Program-made: the position numbers and the translations under genes
NCBI RefSeq assembly: GCF_003762835.1
Contig: NZ_RJWA01000001.1
Location: 310,001-374,000 of the forward strand
DNA from: Micromonospora sp. HM5-17
Lineage (GTDB): Bacteria > Actinomycetota > Actinomycetes > Mycobacteriales > Micromonosporaceae
DNA length: 64,000 bases
Direction of reading: 5' to 3'
The notes under the pieces: generated by a model
What the model was told of the DNA's origin: nothing
The model's database searches: none
What the model saw: the letters and a program-made list of their open reading frames with translations, nothing else
In this document: piece by piece, positions 31,485 through 36,799 of the stretch
How positions within the stretch are numbered: the stretch's first letter is position 1
Layout of the letters: each line of letters opens with the position of its first letter

Positions 31485-33896
31485 TCAGCCCAGCGGTTCG
31501 CCACTGATGGCACTGAGCAGCACCGTGGAGAGCCCCCCACCGACCACGGCGGCGGCGAGGCCGATCGACACCATCCCCCAGCTCCGGTTCACCCAGCGGA
31601 GCAGGACGGCCAGTACCAGGCTGGTCGCCAGGGCCACCCCGAACTGGGGCAGGGCGTCGAGCAGCGCCGACATGGCCCGACCTCGTTCGGACTCGCAGGG
31701 CCCGGCGAGTTCGGGTATGCAACTGACCGGCACCCCGGCGTCGAGCGTCAGCACCCACACCAGCAGCGCCAGCACCGGTACGGCGTACCAGGCGGCGGCG
31801 TACAGGGCGGCGGTGAGCGGGCTACTGGGCCGGGGATCGAGGAGGTCGTCCTCGAGACGCCGACTCAGTGGCGCGGCGCGACGCCGGGCGGCTTCCGAGG
31901 CGAACCGTCGGGGCGGATCTCCGGCGCGTGAGGTCGCCGAGCGCGTGGCCCGCCCGGTGGTGGTCGTGGTCCGGTCGCGGCGCCGACTCGCCGAGGTGCT
32001 CCGCTGCCGGGGAAGCCGCGGCGGCTCGGCGGAGCGTCGGGACGCCGTGCCGCGGGAGCGCCGGGACGCGGTGCCGACCGACGTCGAATAGTTGACCGGC
32101 GGGGACTTCGGCGCCGACTCGGGGATGCCAACCCACCGCGGATCGTCCTCGGCCAGCCGCGTGCCGGACCAGAAGATCCCGCCCCCGTCCTCGTCGGACC
32201 CGAGGACGTCCGGGTCTGCGCTGTGCCGCCCCGGGCGAGTCCCGGCGTCCCGGGACGCGCCGTCCCTGCCGTGCCGCGCCGAACTGCTCCCGGCGTCCCG
32301 CGCCGAGCCGAACAGCTCTCCCGGGCGCCACTCGGTCGTGTCGGTGAGCCGGTCCCACTGGCCGGTGTCGGTGAACCCGTCCCAACGGTCGGACTCACCA
32401 TCGCGCTCCCAGCGACCGGTCCTCCGAGCGCCGACGGTGCTGCCGGTACGGGTACCACCGCCGCTCCAGCCGGTGTCGGCGCTCCGGATTCCGCCGGACC
32501 CCGAACCCTCGGCGTCGGACGCCCGGTCCCGGGCGTGGCGCCCGCCGCGTGGTTCGTCGTCGTCGGTTACCCGTTCCAGGATCCCGGTGTGGGTGTCGCT
32601 GAACCGGTCCCAGGGGATGGTGTCAGCCGACCAGTCCCGGTGTGCGCCGTGCCGGGGCACCAGCCCGGCGTCGGCGTACCGGTCACCGGCGTCGCCTCGG
32701 CCGGAGTCGGAGTAGGCGTGCCGGCCCCGTCCGCCCCGGTCGACGCCCGCCCGGCCCATAGGGTCGGGATCGCTGTGCCGGCCGCCCGACGCGTCGTCGC
32801 GGTGCCGGCGTATCGGCTCGGCGTCGGGAGCGCGATGGCGACGCCGGCTGGCGGTGGCGTCCACCCCGCCCGCGAGGCGTCTGCTCCGGTCGACGGGGTC
32901 GATCTCGTCGGGCGACCGCATCCAGCGGACGGCCAGCCTGGTCGACCCGCCCCGCGTGGTCGACCGGTCCACGGCGGCCCGGTCGTCACCTGCCGAGGTG
33001 TCCGCCCGGCTCGGTGCCGGGAATCCGCCCTCGTCATCGCGGTCGCCAGCTGTGCTCTCGGTCGCCGAGCCCGACCCACGGTGGCGTCGTACCGTCCGTG
33101 GCCGGTCGTCGAGGTAGCCGTCCTCGGTTTCGCCGTCCCCGGCCCGGTCGACCCGGCGCCAGCGGTCGAGGGCGTCCTCCGCGTGCCGGCCGCCCCCGGC
33201 CGGGGCGGTGCGCTCCGCGTACCGGTCGAGGCCGCCCGATGCAGGCCCGGGGTCGTTCCCGGTGCGGACACTCGGTCGCCACCCGTCCACGCCCAGTGCC
33301 ACGTCCTCGTCGGGTGTGGCGTCGCTGTCGCGCCATCCGTCGGCCGTCCGGACCCGGCGGCGACTCCCAGGGGTCTCGGCACCCCAGCCGTACGCCGTCT
33401 TCGACGTCGATCCGGCGATGCCGTTCCCCGGGGCGGACTCGGTGCGGTGGTGCCGGCCCGACTCCGACGCCGGAGCGTCGGCGTCGTCCGGCCACGCGTC
33501 GGCGCGCCAGGATCCGAAGGCACGCCAGTATTCGCCGGACGTGCTCGGCGCGGTCGGTTCCGGCCCGGATTCCTCGGTCGTCAGCGCCCAGGACGGGGTG
33601 TAGGTGTCGGTCGGTTCCGGGGCACCACGGTCTCGGGCAAGGCGCCGGCTCGGCGTGCGGTAACTGCCCTCGGGACGTGAATAGGGCTCCGCCGGCTGGC
33701 CGGTGAGGGGGTCGCCCCAGCCGGCACCCTCCTGCCGCTCGTGTCGGGCGAGTTCACCCCGCCCCCGGTTCCGATGGTCCACGGCCGCAGCGTGACCCTT
33801 CTGATAAGTCGATCGCGAGTAGCCGTCCGGAAGATAGTCGGTGCCTGATGATACGCCGTACGGCTGACCCCGAATGAGCAGGTTTCTTTCCTCCAC
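31485..33896 (-). CDS. Long low-complexity protein with C-terminal membrane domain, unknown function
   Basis: A protein of about 800 residues, unrecognised. Most of it (about 640 residues) is Asp/Arg/Gly/Ser/Trp-rich, charged and probably disordered. It has recurring WDRFSDT, WDGFTDT and WDRLTDT elements and many GRH and DRYAD-type strings. The last 130 residues hold three or four membrane segments (LYAAAWYAVPVLALLVWVLT, LPQFGVALATSLVLAVLLRW and SIGLAAAVVGGGLSTVLLSA) with a Cys pair in VPVSCIPELAGPCESE. The start is uncertain: GTG at 33896 is used, GTG at 33782 is an alternative, and the frame is open to 34028 through the DnaA-box region. Codon bias supports coding. It converges with rplI and diverges from dnaB. 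Confidence 0.6.
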   Translation of the reverse strand: MEERNLLIRGQPYGVSSGTDYLPDGYSRSTYQKGHAAAVDHRNRGRGELARHERQEGAGWGDPLTGQPAEPYSRPEGSYRTPSRRLARDRGAPEPTDTYTPSWALTTEESGPEPTAPSTSGEYWRAFGSWRADAWPDDADAPASESGRHHRTESAPGNGIAGSTSKTAYGWGAETPGSRRRVRTADGWRDSDATPDEDVALGVDGWRPSVRTGNDPGPASGGLDRYAERTAPAGGGRHAEDALDRWRRVDRAGDGETEDGYLDDRPRTVRRHRGSGSATESTAGDRDDEGGFPAPSRADTSAGDDRAAVDRSTTRGGSTRLAVRWMRSPDEIDPVDRSRRLAGGVDATASRRRHRAPDAEPIRRHRDDASGGRHSDPDPMGRAGVDRGGRGRHAYSDSGRGDAGDRYADAGLVPRHGAHRDWSADTIPWDRFSDTHTGILERVTDDDEPRGGRHARDRASDAEGSGSGGIRSADTGWSGGGTRTGSTVGARRTGRWERDGESDRWDGFTDTGQWDRLTDTTEWRPGELFGSARDAGSSSARHGRDGASRDAGTRPGRHSADPDVLGSDEDGGGIFWSGTRLAEDDPRWVGIPESAPKSPPVNYSTSVGTASRRSRGTASRRSAEPPRLPRQRSTSASRRRDRTTTTTGRATRSATSRAGDPPRRFASEAARRRAAPLSRRLEDDLLDPRPSSPLTAALYAAAWYAVPVLALLVWVLTLDAGVPVSCIPELAGPCESERGRAMSALLDALPQFGVALATSLVLAVLLRWVNRSWGMVSIGLAAAVVGGGLSTVLLSAISGEPLG

Positions 33897-34264
33897 ACGA
33901 TGGGGACCGAGTTTTCGCAGGTCAGGGCGGCTGTGGATGATCTTCCCCAATAGTTTTCCACAACCTGTGCACAGGGCTGTGCACATCCCGCCGTCGGCCG
34001 TCCACAGGTTGTCCCGAACTCCGTCCACCGCCGCTATTGAGCGGCTGACCTCGGCTTACGTATCGTTGCGCCCTGGCCTCGCATGTCGCCCCGACTTCCC
34101 CCGGTCGCGGACCGCCGGGGCCGCCTGGACGGCGCCGGCTCGACCGGTGCCAGGGCCGCCCGCGACGGGGTCGGTCCGGGGCCCGAGGCGTCGGGTCCGG
34201 AGACTGTGGTACGGCGGTGGTCCGCGAGGGACCGGGCCGGGCAGGCGGAAGGGGGGAGAGTCCG
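33897..34264. other. Divergent regulatory region upstream of dnaB
   Basis: A 368-base gap between the low-complexity membrane protein and dnaB. Its left third is AT-richer and holds several DnaA-box-like nonamers and two TGTGCACA palindromes. The right part is GC-rich with no gene seen; the dnaB ribosome site GGGGGGAG lies at its end. Confidence 0.6.
33932..34006. promoter_or_regulatory. Cluster of DnaA-box-like sites
   Basis: TGTGGATGA (33932-33940, reverse TCATCCACA), TTTTCCACA (33954-33962) and CCGTCCACA (33998-34006) each match the DnaA nonamer within one or two positions. CCGTCCACA fits the streptomycete consensus. Two TGTGCACA palindromes (33966-33973 and 33978-33985) lie between them, 12 bases apart. 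DnaA or another regulator may act here on dnaB or the divergent gene. Confidence 0.5.
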
Positions 34265-36799
34265 GTGTCGATCACCGACGATGTCCGCGGCGGGTCACGG
34301 TCCACCTCGCCGCCACCCGACGTTCCCGCTCCCCGCGACGGTCAGTTCGACAAGACCCCACCCCAGGACATCGCCGCCGAGCAGTGCGTCCTGGGCGGCA
34401 TGCTCCTCTCCAAGGACGCCATCGCGGACGTCGTGGAGATCCTGAAGTCCAGTGACTTCTACCGTCCGGCGCACGCGACCATCTTCGACGCGATTCTCGA
34501 CCTGTACGGGCGGGGCGAGCCGGCCGACGCGATCACCGTGGCCGCCGCGCTGGCCGACTCCGGCGACCTGGCCCGGGTCGGCGGCGCCCCCTACCTGCAC
34601 ACGCTGATCGCGAGCGTGCCGACCGCGGCGAACGCCGCGTACTACGCGCGGATCGTCGGCGAGCGGGCGGTGCTGCGCCGCCTGGTCGAGGCCGGCACCC
34701 GGATCGTCCAGCTCGGCTACGGAGCGGCCAACGGTGGCGGCCGGGACGTCGACGACATCGTCGACCTGGCCCAGCAGGCGATCTACGACGTCACCGAACG
34801 GCGGGTCAGCGAGGACTTCGCGGTCCTCGCCGACATGCTCCAGCCGACGCTGGACGAGATCGAGGCGGTCGGCGCGCAGGGCGGGGTGATGTCCGGCGTA
34901 CCGACGGGCTTCACCGATCTCGACCGGCTGCTCAACGGCCTGCACCCCGGCCAGTTGATCGTCGTCGCGGGTCGACCCGGCCTCGGCAAGGCGCTCGCCC
35001 TGGACACCCCACTGCCCACTCCGGACGGCTGGACGACGATGGGCGAGGTCAGGGTCGGTGACCGCCTGCTCGGCGCCGACGGCCGGCCGACGACCGTCAC
35101 CGCCGCCTTCGAGGTGCGGTACGGCCGCCCCTGCTACGAGGTGGAGTTCTCGGACGGTTCGGTGATCGTCGCCGACGCGGAGCACCTGTGGAAGACGACC
35201 ACCGAGGCGAGTCACCCGCAGCGACGTGGGACGTCCGGTCCAGATCGGACACTCCACGCCGCGGCGTCGGTCGGCAGGCCCCGCGTCGGGTGGGCGGCGC
35301 CGGCCCACGACGGTCCTTTGCCGACCACGGGCGGGCTCGCCGTGGCGGAACGTCCGGTGACCGCCGCCGACGCGACCGAGGACGGTGTCGTCACCACGGA
35401 ACAGATCCGGGCGACCCTGTGGACCGACGACCACCGGTTCAACCACGCCGTGCGGAACTGCGCGCCGTTGGACCTGCCCGTACGCGAGCTGCCGGTCCCC
35501 CCGTACACCCTCGGCCTGTGGCTCGGCGACGGCCCGTCGGGCTCCGGCTGCGCCTCGTGCGCGCCGGCGACCCCCGGCCAGGCCGGAACGTCCACCGGCC
35601 ACCGCTGCCCGGAGTGCCCCGCCGGCTCGGAATGGCTGGCCCTGCTCGGATCGCTGGGTGTCCTGGATGACCGGCACATCCCCGCCGCGTACCTGCGTGC
35701 CGCCGAATCCCAACGGCGGGCGCTGCTCGCCGGCCTGATGGACCGCGGCGGGACCGTGGCGCCCTCCGGTGACCTCCGGTTCACCACGAGGTCGCGCCGG
35801 CTCGCGTGCGACGTACGGGAACTCGTGGTCAGCCTCGGCTACGGCTGCGCGATGACCGAGGAGCGGGTGTCGGGGCGGCCCGCGGAGGCGTCGACGGCGT
35901 ACATCCTGACCTTCGGCACGGCGGACGTGGTCTTCCGCCTCGAGCACAAGCGCGCGGCGCACCGGGAGCGCTGCCGCCCGGAGGACGCCGCCCGGACCGG
36001 GGTCCGGCACATCGTGGCGGTCCGCCCGGTGCCGAGCGTGCCGGTCCGCTGCGTGACGGTCGACAACCCCGACCATCTCTACCTGGCCGGTCGCGGGATG
36101 GTCCCGACCCACAACTCGACCGCGTCGATGGACTTCGCCCGGAACGCCGCCATCCGCTACAACTGCGCCAGCGCGATCTTCTCGCTGGAGATGAGCAAGG
36201 TCGAGATCGTGATGCGGCTGCTCTCGGCCGAGGCTCGGGTGCCGCTGCACGTGCTGCGCAGTGGGCAGCTCTCCGACGACGACTGGACCAAGCTCGCCCG
36301 CCGGATGGGCGAGATCAGCGAGGCGCCGCTCTTCGTCGACGACACCCCGAACATGAACCTGATGGAGATCCGGGCGAAGGCGCGACGGCTCAAGCAGCGG
36401 CACGACCTCAAGATGATCGTCGTCGACTATCTCCAACTGATGACCTCGCCGAAGCGGGTCGAGAGTAGGCAGCAGGAGGTCGCGGAGCTGTCCCGGGGTC
36501 TCAAGCTGCTGGCCAAGGAGGTCGAGTGCCCGGTGATCGCGGTCAGCCAGCTGAACCGCGGCCCGGAACAGCGGACCGACAAGCGGCCCCAACTGTCGGA
36601 CCTCCGGGAAAGTGGATCTATCGAGCAGGACGCGGACGTGGTGATCCTGCTGCATCGCGACGACTACTACGACAAGGAGTCGCCCCGGGCCGGCGAGGCG
36701 GACTTCATCGTCGCGAAACACCGTAACGGCCCCACGGACACCATCACCGTGGCCGCTCAGCTCCACCTGTCCCGCTTCGTCGACATGGCGGTCGTCTGA
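34265..36799 (+). CDS. dnaB: Replicative DNA helicase DnaB containing an intein
   Basis: Hexameric 5'-3' helicase of the replication fork. The precursor has 844 residues; removing the 375-residue intein (243-617) leaves a 469-residue helicase of normal length. The N-extein has PPQDIAAEQCVLGGMLLSKD and the N-terminal collar, the linker helix, and the RecA fold up to Walker A GRPGLGK. The C-extein resumes STASMDFARN, with Walker B MIVVDYLQLM, VIAVSQLNRGPEQR and the arginine-finger region SGSIEQDADVVILLHRDD. The GTG at 34265 has GGGGGGAG 6 bases upstream. Function depends on splicing because Walker A is split between Lys and Ser. Confidence 0.96.
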   Translation: MSITDDVRGGSRSTSPPPDVPAPRDGQFDKTPPQDIAAEQCVLGGMLLSKDAIADVVEILKSSDFYRPAHATIFDAILDLYGRGEPADAITVAAALADSGDLARVGGAPYLHTLIASVPTAANAAYYARIVGERAVLRRLVEAGTRIVQLGYGAANGGGRDVDDIVDLAQQAIYDVTERRVSEDFAVLADMLQPTLDEIEAVGAQGGVMSGVPTGFTDLDRLLNGLHPGQLIVVAGRPGLGKALALDTPLPTPDGWTTMGEVRVGDRLLGADGRPTTVTAAFEVRYGRPCYEVEFSDGSVIVADAEHLWKTTTEASHPQRRGTSGPDRTLHAAASVGRPRVGWAAPAHDGPLPTTGGLAVAERPVTAADATEDGVVTTEQIRATLWTDDHRFNHAVRNCAPLDLPVRELPVPPYTLGLWLGDGPSGSGCASCAPATPGQAGTSTGHRCPECPAGSEWLALLGSLGVLDDRHIPAAYLRAAESQRRALLAGLMDRGGTVAPSGDLRFTTRSRRLACDVRELVVSLGYGCAMTEERVSGRPAEASTAYILTFGTADVVFRLEHKRAAHRERCRPEDAARTGVRHIVAVRPVPSVPVRCVTVDNPDHLYLAGRGMVPTHNSTASMDFARNAAIRYNCASAIFSLEMSKVEIVMRLLSAEARVPLHVLRSGQLSDDDWTKLARRMGEISEAPLFVDDTPNMNLMEIRAKARRLKQRHDLKMIVVDYLQLMTSPKRVESRQQEVAELSRGLKLLAKEVECPVIAVSQLNRGPEQRTDKRPQLSDLRESGSIEQDADVVILLHRDDYYDKESPRAGEADFIVAKHRNGPTDTITVAAQLHLSRFVDMAVV
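34991..36115 (+). other. Class 3-type DnaB intein with decayed LAGLIDADG endonuclease
   Basis: A 375-residue in-frame intein inserted after GRPGLGK. It begins with Ala (ALALDTPLPTPDGW) instead of Cys or Ser and ends MVPTHN before Ser of the C-extein. The class 3 triad is present: Trp67 (AEHLWKT), Cys354 (VPVRCVTVD) and Thr373 (PTHN). A LAGLIDADG-type endonuclease lies inside. Its first motif LGLWLGDG (174-181) keeps the acid; the second reads LAGLMDRGG (246-254), with Gly where the catalytic Asp is expected. Two CxxC pairs (187/190 and 206/209) sit between the motifs. Splicing should be intact; homing is probably lost. Related inteins occur at this site in mycobacterial and phage DnaB. Confidence 0.92.

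Follow-up and report, generated by a model that had tools for sequence, protein, structure and literature searches.

The 64,000-nucleotide stretch of DNA analysed here (the window; positions 310,001 to 374,000 of contig NZ_RJWA01000001.1) derives from Micromonospora sp. HM5-17 and contains a dnaB replicative DNA helicase gene, the open reading frame (ORF) of which is interrupted by an intein in the Walker A motif (Table 1). The DnaB ORF matched TIGR00665 with 519.8 bits (cut-off 385.25), and the true start of the gene is uncertain, the candidates being GTG 34217, GTG 34265 and ATG 34400. The genes for single-stranded DNA-binding protein (SSB) and ribosomal protein L9 are located upstream, which is the customary neighbourhood of dnaB in actinobacteria. 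This ORF was the sole above-cut-off DnaB match in its own genome (96% complete), the runner-up reaching 30.6 bits, far under the cut-off. A class 3 intein with a decayed endonuclease and two CxxC pairs had originally been predicted at this position, together with the claim that DnaB activity depends on splicing; the finding of no other DnaB above the cut-off supports that dependence.

Table 1. Features of the intein-interrupted dnaB gene in the window. A slash marks the insertion point.
Feature	Position	Strand	Evidence
dnaB replicative DNA helicase ORF, intein-interrupted	34217..36799	+	TIGR00665, PF00772, PF03796
Class 3 intein, 375 aa, in-frame in Walker A (GRPGLGK/STASM)	34991..36115	+	Empty site in L239
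Splicing domain, N-terminal half: Ala1, Cys48, Asp62, His65, Trp67	34991..35200	+	6bs8 likeness; 81-row alignment
Endonuclease start (VTTEQI...) and first LAGLIDADG-type motif LGLWLGDG, Asp180 kept	35390..35533	+	Sequence, alignment
Putative Cys4 remnant GCASC-x15-CPEC, second half of an eight-cysteine block	35546..35617	+	L085 comparison
Second LAGLIDADG motif LAGLMDRGG, residues 246-254, catalytic Asp replaced by Gly253	35726..35752	+	Sequence, alignment
Splicing domain, C-terminal half: Cys354 (block F), Val355, Tyr364, Thr373, His374, Asn375	36005..36115	+	Alignment

The borders of the intein are exact, because the uninterrupted site GRPGLGKSTASM was read in a genome of the same genus (G002, locus L239). 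Class 3 inteins are defined by Trp at B:12, Cys at F:4 and Thr at G:5 (PMC3196547, PMC5222942). The residues read in the window intein (Ala1, Asp62, His65, Trp67, Cys354, Thr373, His374 and Asn375, followed by Ser+1) provide this triad as Trp67, Cys354 and Thr373, and they also give a first residue that is not Ser, Thr or Cys and the class-typical His at B:10 (His65) with Ser or Thr at +1. Among the named intein loci, which were the best 80 of 177 found and were compared in 81 aligned rows, the same GK/S site together with Ala1, His65, Trp67, Cys354, Thr373, His374 and Asn375 was present in 80/80, so that chance can be excluded; Ala1, His65 and Trp67 were invariant in all 81 rows. The closest named relatives were from Micromonospora and other Micromonosporaceae. 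Given that all sequence features were found, that the Ala start and the triad fall at class 3 positions in the alignment and that 80/80 relatives are alike, the class 3 assignment was borne out, with Ala1, Trp67, Cys354, Thr373 and Ser+1 all read as predicted.

The insertion point GRPGLGK/STASM corresponds to DnaB site b, the site of DnaBi1, which lies in the P-loop ahead of the Mg-coordinating Ser (PMC6195587). The same placement ahead of Ser is described for M. smegmatis DnaBi1 (6bs8, 6own) and M. chimaera DnaB1 (6rix, 6riy) (PMC6195587, PMC7360933), and Ala1, Trp67, the block F Cys, the block G Thr, Cys48 and the zinc-holding Val/Tyr are common to the window intein and those of DnaBi1 type. 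The splicing domain agreed with 6bs8 at 66% identity and 1.1 Å over 125 residues, with Trp67 and Cys354 aligned to Trp67 and Cys118 of 6bs8. When splicing-domain columns at least 85% conserved were taken from 52 relatives carrying both catalytic Asp residues of the endonuclease and a four-cysteine (Cys4) pattern, 70/70 were kept in the window. The splicing part of the window intein adds one more member to a published family and by itself is ordinary. A dead intein, leaving an unspliced precursor while DnaB is supplied from elsewhere, has a published precedent in the class 3 pseudogene Arth_1007 (PMC3196547), but the splicing residues in the window are intact, unlike those of Arth_1007, the reading frame stays open and the genome (96% complete) gave no second above-cut-off DnaB, which leaves this explanation a next to negligible probability.

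The endonuclease part gave a different picture. As predicted, the second LAGLIDADG motif has no catalytic Asp; Asp was found at the Gly253 column in 59/81 aligned inteins. An active LAGLIDADG enzyme has a catalytic acid in both motifs, and in the window only Asp180 is kept. The inter-motif segment is 78 residues shorter than in locus L085 of the same genus, and 70 of 90 endonuclease columns, conserved at the same level in the same 52 relatives, are retained, the remaining 20 being altered or deleted; two of these 20 are cysteine columns that the window does fill, the automatic alignment having misplaced CASC beside the first motif. Judged from these comparisons, the endonuclease is decayed through the loss of the catalytic Asp and about 78 residues. 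Cutting or nicking of DNA despite Gly253 could be argued from the retention of Asp180 and from the structure model, in which residues 211-330 had a ten-residue mean predicted local distance difference test (pLDDT) score >80 in all blocks but one, but given the loss of one catalytic acid out of two, the absence of much of the inter-motif segment and the extent of change in conserved columns, such activity is extremely improbable.

The intein is present in the dnaB of 4/7 genomes of the genus. The dnaB of G002 is empty by direct reading; for G003 and G004 the same is inferred from a 1305-base match without a break, and a match likewise unbroken was obtained for a second dnaB of G001. The alleles in the genus comprise L085, which has 507 aa and is apparently intact, and the shortened copies L084 (445 aa), L086 and the window intein (375 aa).

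The CxxC pairs of the window, CASC (187-190) and CPEC (206-209), lie between the endonuclease motifs, 45-67 residues from the end of the second motif, so that the distance of about 60 given originally was roughly right. The apparently intact L085 carries both catalytic Asp residues and, between the motifs, eight cysteines arranged as four pairs, and its second module GCASC-x15-CVEC is identical to the window segment GCASC-x15-CPEC at 15/24 positions; within the 15-residue spacer there are 7 identities, a score reached in 2/100000 shuffles. In the other two alleles, L084 and L086, no cysteine occurs between the motifs and all splicing residues are kept. DNA alignments of the cysteine region with five Micromonosporaceae copies were ambiguous. 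CASC and CPEC are most likely the relic of a zinc-ribbon-like accessory block of the nuclease, as indicated by their likeness to L085. Two other origins were considered and rejected, namely a lineage-specific regulatory insert, given that the same piece occurs in the apparently intact endonuclease of the same genus, and a new origin near motif C, on the same L085 comparison.

Several observations weigh against a relic. A profile search of the window's own genome with the whole block gave no match at E 0.001 and a Pfam scan of the window intein gave no zinc family, so that the case for homology of the remnant depends on comparing it directly with L085. None of the four cysteines has been lost from a domain that is badly shortened, and there is therefore room for a retained function. 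In the careful tree of 107 intein rows described below, the window was placed in no supported group and the link between loss of Asp and loss of the cysteines was non-significant (median p 0.125).

It had been proposed that the four cysteines bind zinc or form disulfides and thereby switch DnaB splicing on and off. Their retention after loss of the catalytic Asp and about 78 residues is compatible with this, as is the response of the related DnaBi1 intein to zinc and oxidants (PMC7360933, PMC6195587). However, the pairs are homologous to half of the block in the endonuclease of L085, the block is absent from L084 and L086 with their splicing residues kept, the pLDDT of the cysteine segment in the window model is mostly <50, and CxxC is not required for the responses that have been published, the DnaBi1 of M. 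smegmatis being described with two cysteines only (PMC6195587). We regard a CxxC switch as very unlikely. Equally little credence, or slightly less, is given to the broader proposal that a double zinc-ribbon module in actinobacterial class 3 DnaB endonucleases is the first zinc finger of a bacterial intein and that the half in the window was kept as a metal or redox sensor gating splicing.

Conditional splicing as such is a separate matter. In M. smegmatis DnaBi1, oxidants induce a Cys48-Cys118 disulfide (PMC6195587) and zinc is held by Cys118, Val119 and Tyr128 (PMC7360933). The counterparts in the window are Cys48, Cys354, Val355 and Tyr364. By analogy with DnaBi1, conditional splicing of the window intein is therefore plausible with no part played by the CxxC pairs, and if it occurs the likely sensors would be Cys354 with Cys48 for oxidation and Cys354, Val355 and Tyr364 for zinc. 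Of the original proposal, the conditional splicing thus stands as plausible through residues published for DnaBi1, and the role of the CxxC pairs as the switch was unsupported.

Taken from the sequence, it is highly probable that the window intein, of class 3 and DnaBi1 type, still splices and no longer homes, and that its CxxC pairs are most likely a relic. From the residues present and the published work on DnaBi1, Cys354 would attack the Lys-Ala1 bond, Ser+1 would take over the N-extein and Asn375 would cyclise, and splicing would restore the Walker A sequence GRPGLGKST and give an active DnaB. The endonuclease would have lost the second-motif Asp (Gly253), about 78 inter-motif residues and four of eight cysteines, and the remaining CASC and CPEC would represent the second half of the accessory block.

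The full block (CxxC-x13-CxxxC, then CxxC-x(9 to 15)-CxxC) was found in 30/108 inteins, from Nocardia, Mycobacterium, Rhodococcus, Amycolatopsis, Streptosporangiaceae, Nocardiopsis, Blastococcus, Humibacillus and the window's own family. The eight cysteines were present in 20/20 block rows, these rows having been selected for having them. The Pfam family DZR_2 (double zinc ribbon) matched 14/31 full inteins and 13/20 blocks, with scores in displayed members of 15.9 bits (full intein) and 22 bits (block), both under the cut-off of 27. In the model of L051, an intein with both Asp residues, no residue had a pLDDT <50 and the ten-residue means were 75-86 across the block; the second pairs adjoin helix starts (Cys199/203 with helix 204-210 and Cys232/235 with helix 233-239), and in this model the arrangement appears as in treble-clef zinc sites, as judged without coordinates. 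A profile search of solved structures for known zinc folds gave weak matches only (best E 0.0047) and Hint and LAGLIDADG folds crowded the results of the structure comparisons, so that a zinc fold is neither shown nor excluded. The block of the intact relatives is probably zinc-ribbon-like, a predicted zinc binder that may aid endonuclease folding or DNA binding. A piece resembling the first module was also observed in a standalone ORF encoding an HNH endonuclease with an HNH domain (L252).

The association of the block with the nuclease was compared over the 108 intein rows, which include two non-DnaB inteins (FtsK L087 and dCTP deaminase-like L096). Rows were counted as intact if Asp was present at both catalytic columns, one row with Glu (second column) and one with Asn (first column) being counted as non-intact, and the rows with CxxC-x6-CxxC (L020, L022 and L023) were scored as being without the Cys4 pattern. 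The pattern was present in 52/78 rows with both Asp residues and in 5/30 others. The 26/78 both-Asp rows without it (three of them with the closer-spaced CxxC pairs) suggest that the block may be dispensable even for the nuclease. Two trees, quick and careful, were made with L096 omitted. On the careful tree the Asp and Cys traits change at least 16 and at least 22 times, and among 12 supported independent pairs 4.9 were in the same direction, 0.8 in the opposite direction and the rest without difference. The quick tree had 10 supported pairs (4.3 with, 0.4 against, median p 0.125) and the splicing-domain tree just 2. The association between Asp loss and Cys loss in these sequences is suggestive only.

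The pooled ratio of nonsynonymous to synonymous substitution rates (dN/dS) was 0.16 for the splicing domain, 0.30 for the endonuclease and 0.25 for the Cys block, as calculated from 188/1326 pairs (non-independent) of Cys4-bearing both-Asp copies with an overall dS of 0.1-0.9; the value of 0.25 indicated that the block is constrained in these copies. Given that L084 and L086 keep the splicing residues without any inter-motif cysteine, splicing is probably independent of the block, and inteins of this kind probably do not need it to splice.

PI-SceI and the VMA inteins are not known as class 3 inteins. PI-SceI, TliVMA and PhoVMA formed the comparison set of LAGLIDADG inteins with an intact or decayed endonuclease and accessory domains, and in TliVMA and PhoVMA the accessory domain is described between the endonuclease and the C-terminal splicing part (PMC8966425), whereas in the window's relatives the two LAGLIDADG motifs flank the cysteine block. 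For M. smegmatis and M. leprae, mini-inteins without an endonuclease are described (PMC6195587), and in the window a decayed endonuclease of about 200 residues is still present, together with the putative Cys4 remnant. Yeast HO/WHO is similar in combining an intein-type LAGLIDADG endonuclease with several CxxC motifs, but there the fusion is C-terminal and on a free, non-splicing protein (PMC7282813), and here the block is internal and in bacterial class 3 inteins. According to a 2020 paper, yeast HO/WHO are the sole known intein-zinc finger fusions (PMC7282813). In the open-access papers searched, mostly for inteins or LAGLIDADG proteins in connection with zinc or cysteines, the eight-cysteine block was not found described, which does not prove its absence from print. 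As an accessory module the block is open to testing; it would add a case outside yeast HO/WHO to the known combinations of intein and zinc finger and may influence homing specificity, and it cautions against taking every CxxC pair in an intein for a splicing switch.

The wider class 3 family was examined in a viral scan (IMG/VR, L129-L208) of 80 contigs, the best of 566 relatives, of which the frame-shifted L206 was left out. Class 3 residues were found by pattern in 78 of the remaining 79 loci, 49/79 were inserted after GK, and all 79 continued with Thr or Ser. Two closely spaced CxxC pairs occurred in L165 only, so that in this sample the block belongs chiefly to the actinobacterial DnaB lineage. 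L165 is a 489-aa class 3 intein at GQGSGK/STDLW; between its LAGLIDADG motifs it has a cysteine-rich block of its own, possibly a phage relative of the actinobacterial one. Some of the viral GK/[ST] host genes look like terminase P-loops, as judged by eye.

Class 3 inteins were also observed in other genes. A second intein with class 3 features (Ala start, HLW, block F Cys, VTHN and Thr+1) is present in the window's own genome at G000:C3:60970-62004 (L082, L083), in a PhoH-like ATPase (PF02562) at MRGR/TLND; class 3 PhoH inteins have already been named in the Fig. 6 legend of PMC6195587. Within the genus, L087 (G004) is a DnaBi1-like class 3 intein in the FtsK Walker A motif (GATGAGK/SSCLN), with both endonuclease Asp residues and without the cysteine block, and L096 (G005) is a class 3 intein in a dCTP deaminase-like gene (PF22769) at EGK/SSLGR, in a non-P-loop protein. 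The insertion DNA of L096, GGAAAG/TC, resembles the FtsK site and most printed DnaB sites, L001 being an exception with AGC, and this resemblance hints at homing via the shared GK/S coding sequence. The genome of L096 also has a 1443-aa dnaB ORF with two inteins (L244), a pair such as has been described for M. smegmatis, the one in Walker A being of class 3 and the other, further on and ahead of SIEQDADV, of Cys1 type.

Elsewhere in the window, an 847-aa ORF at 31485-34028 on the minus strand, for which a Pfam scan gave nothing at E 0.001, is rich in Arg, Ser and Asp and has hydrophobic stretches toward its C-terminus.
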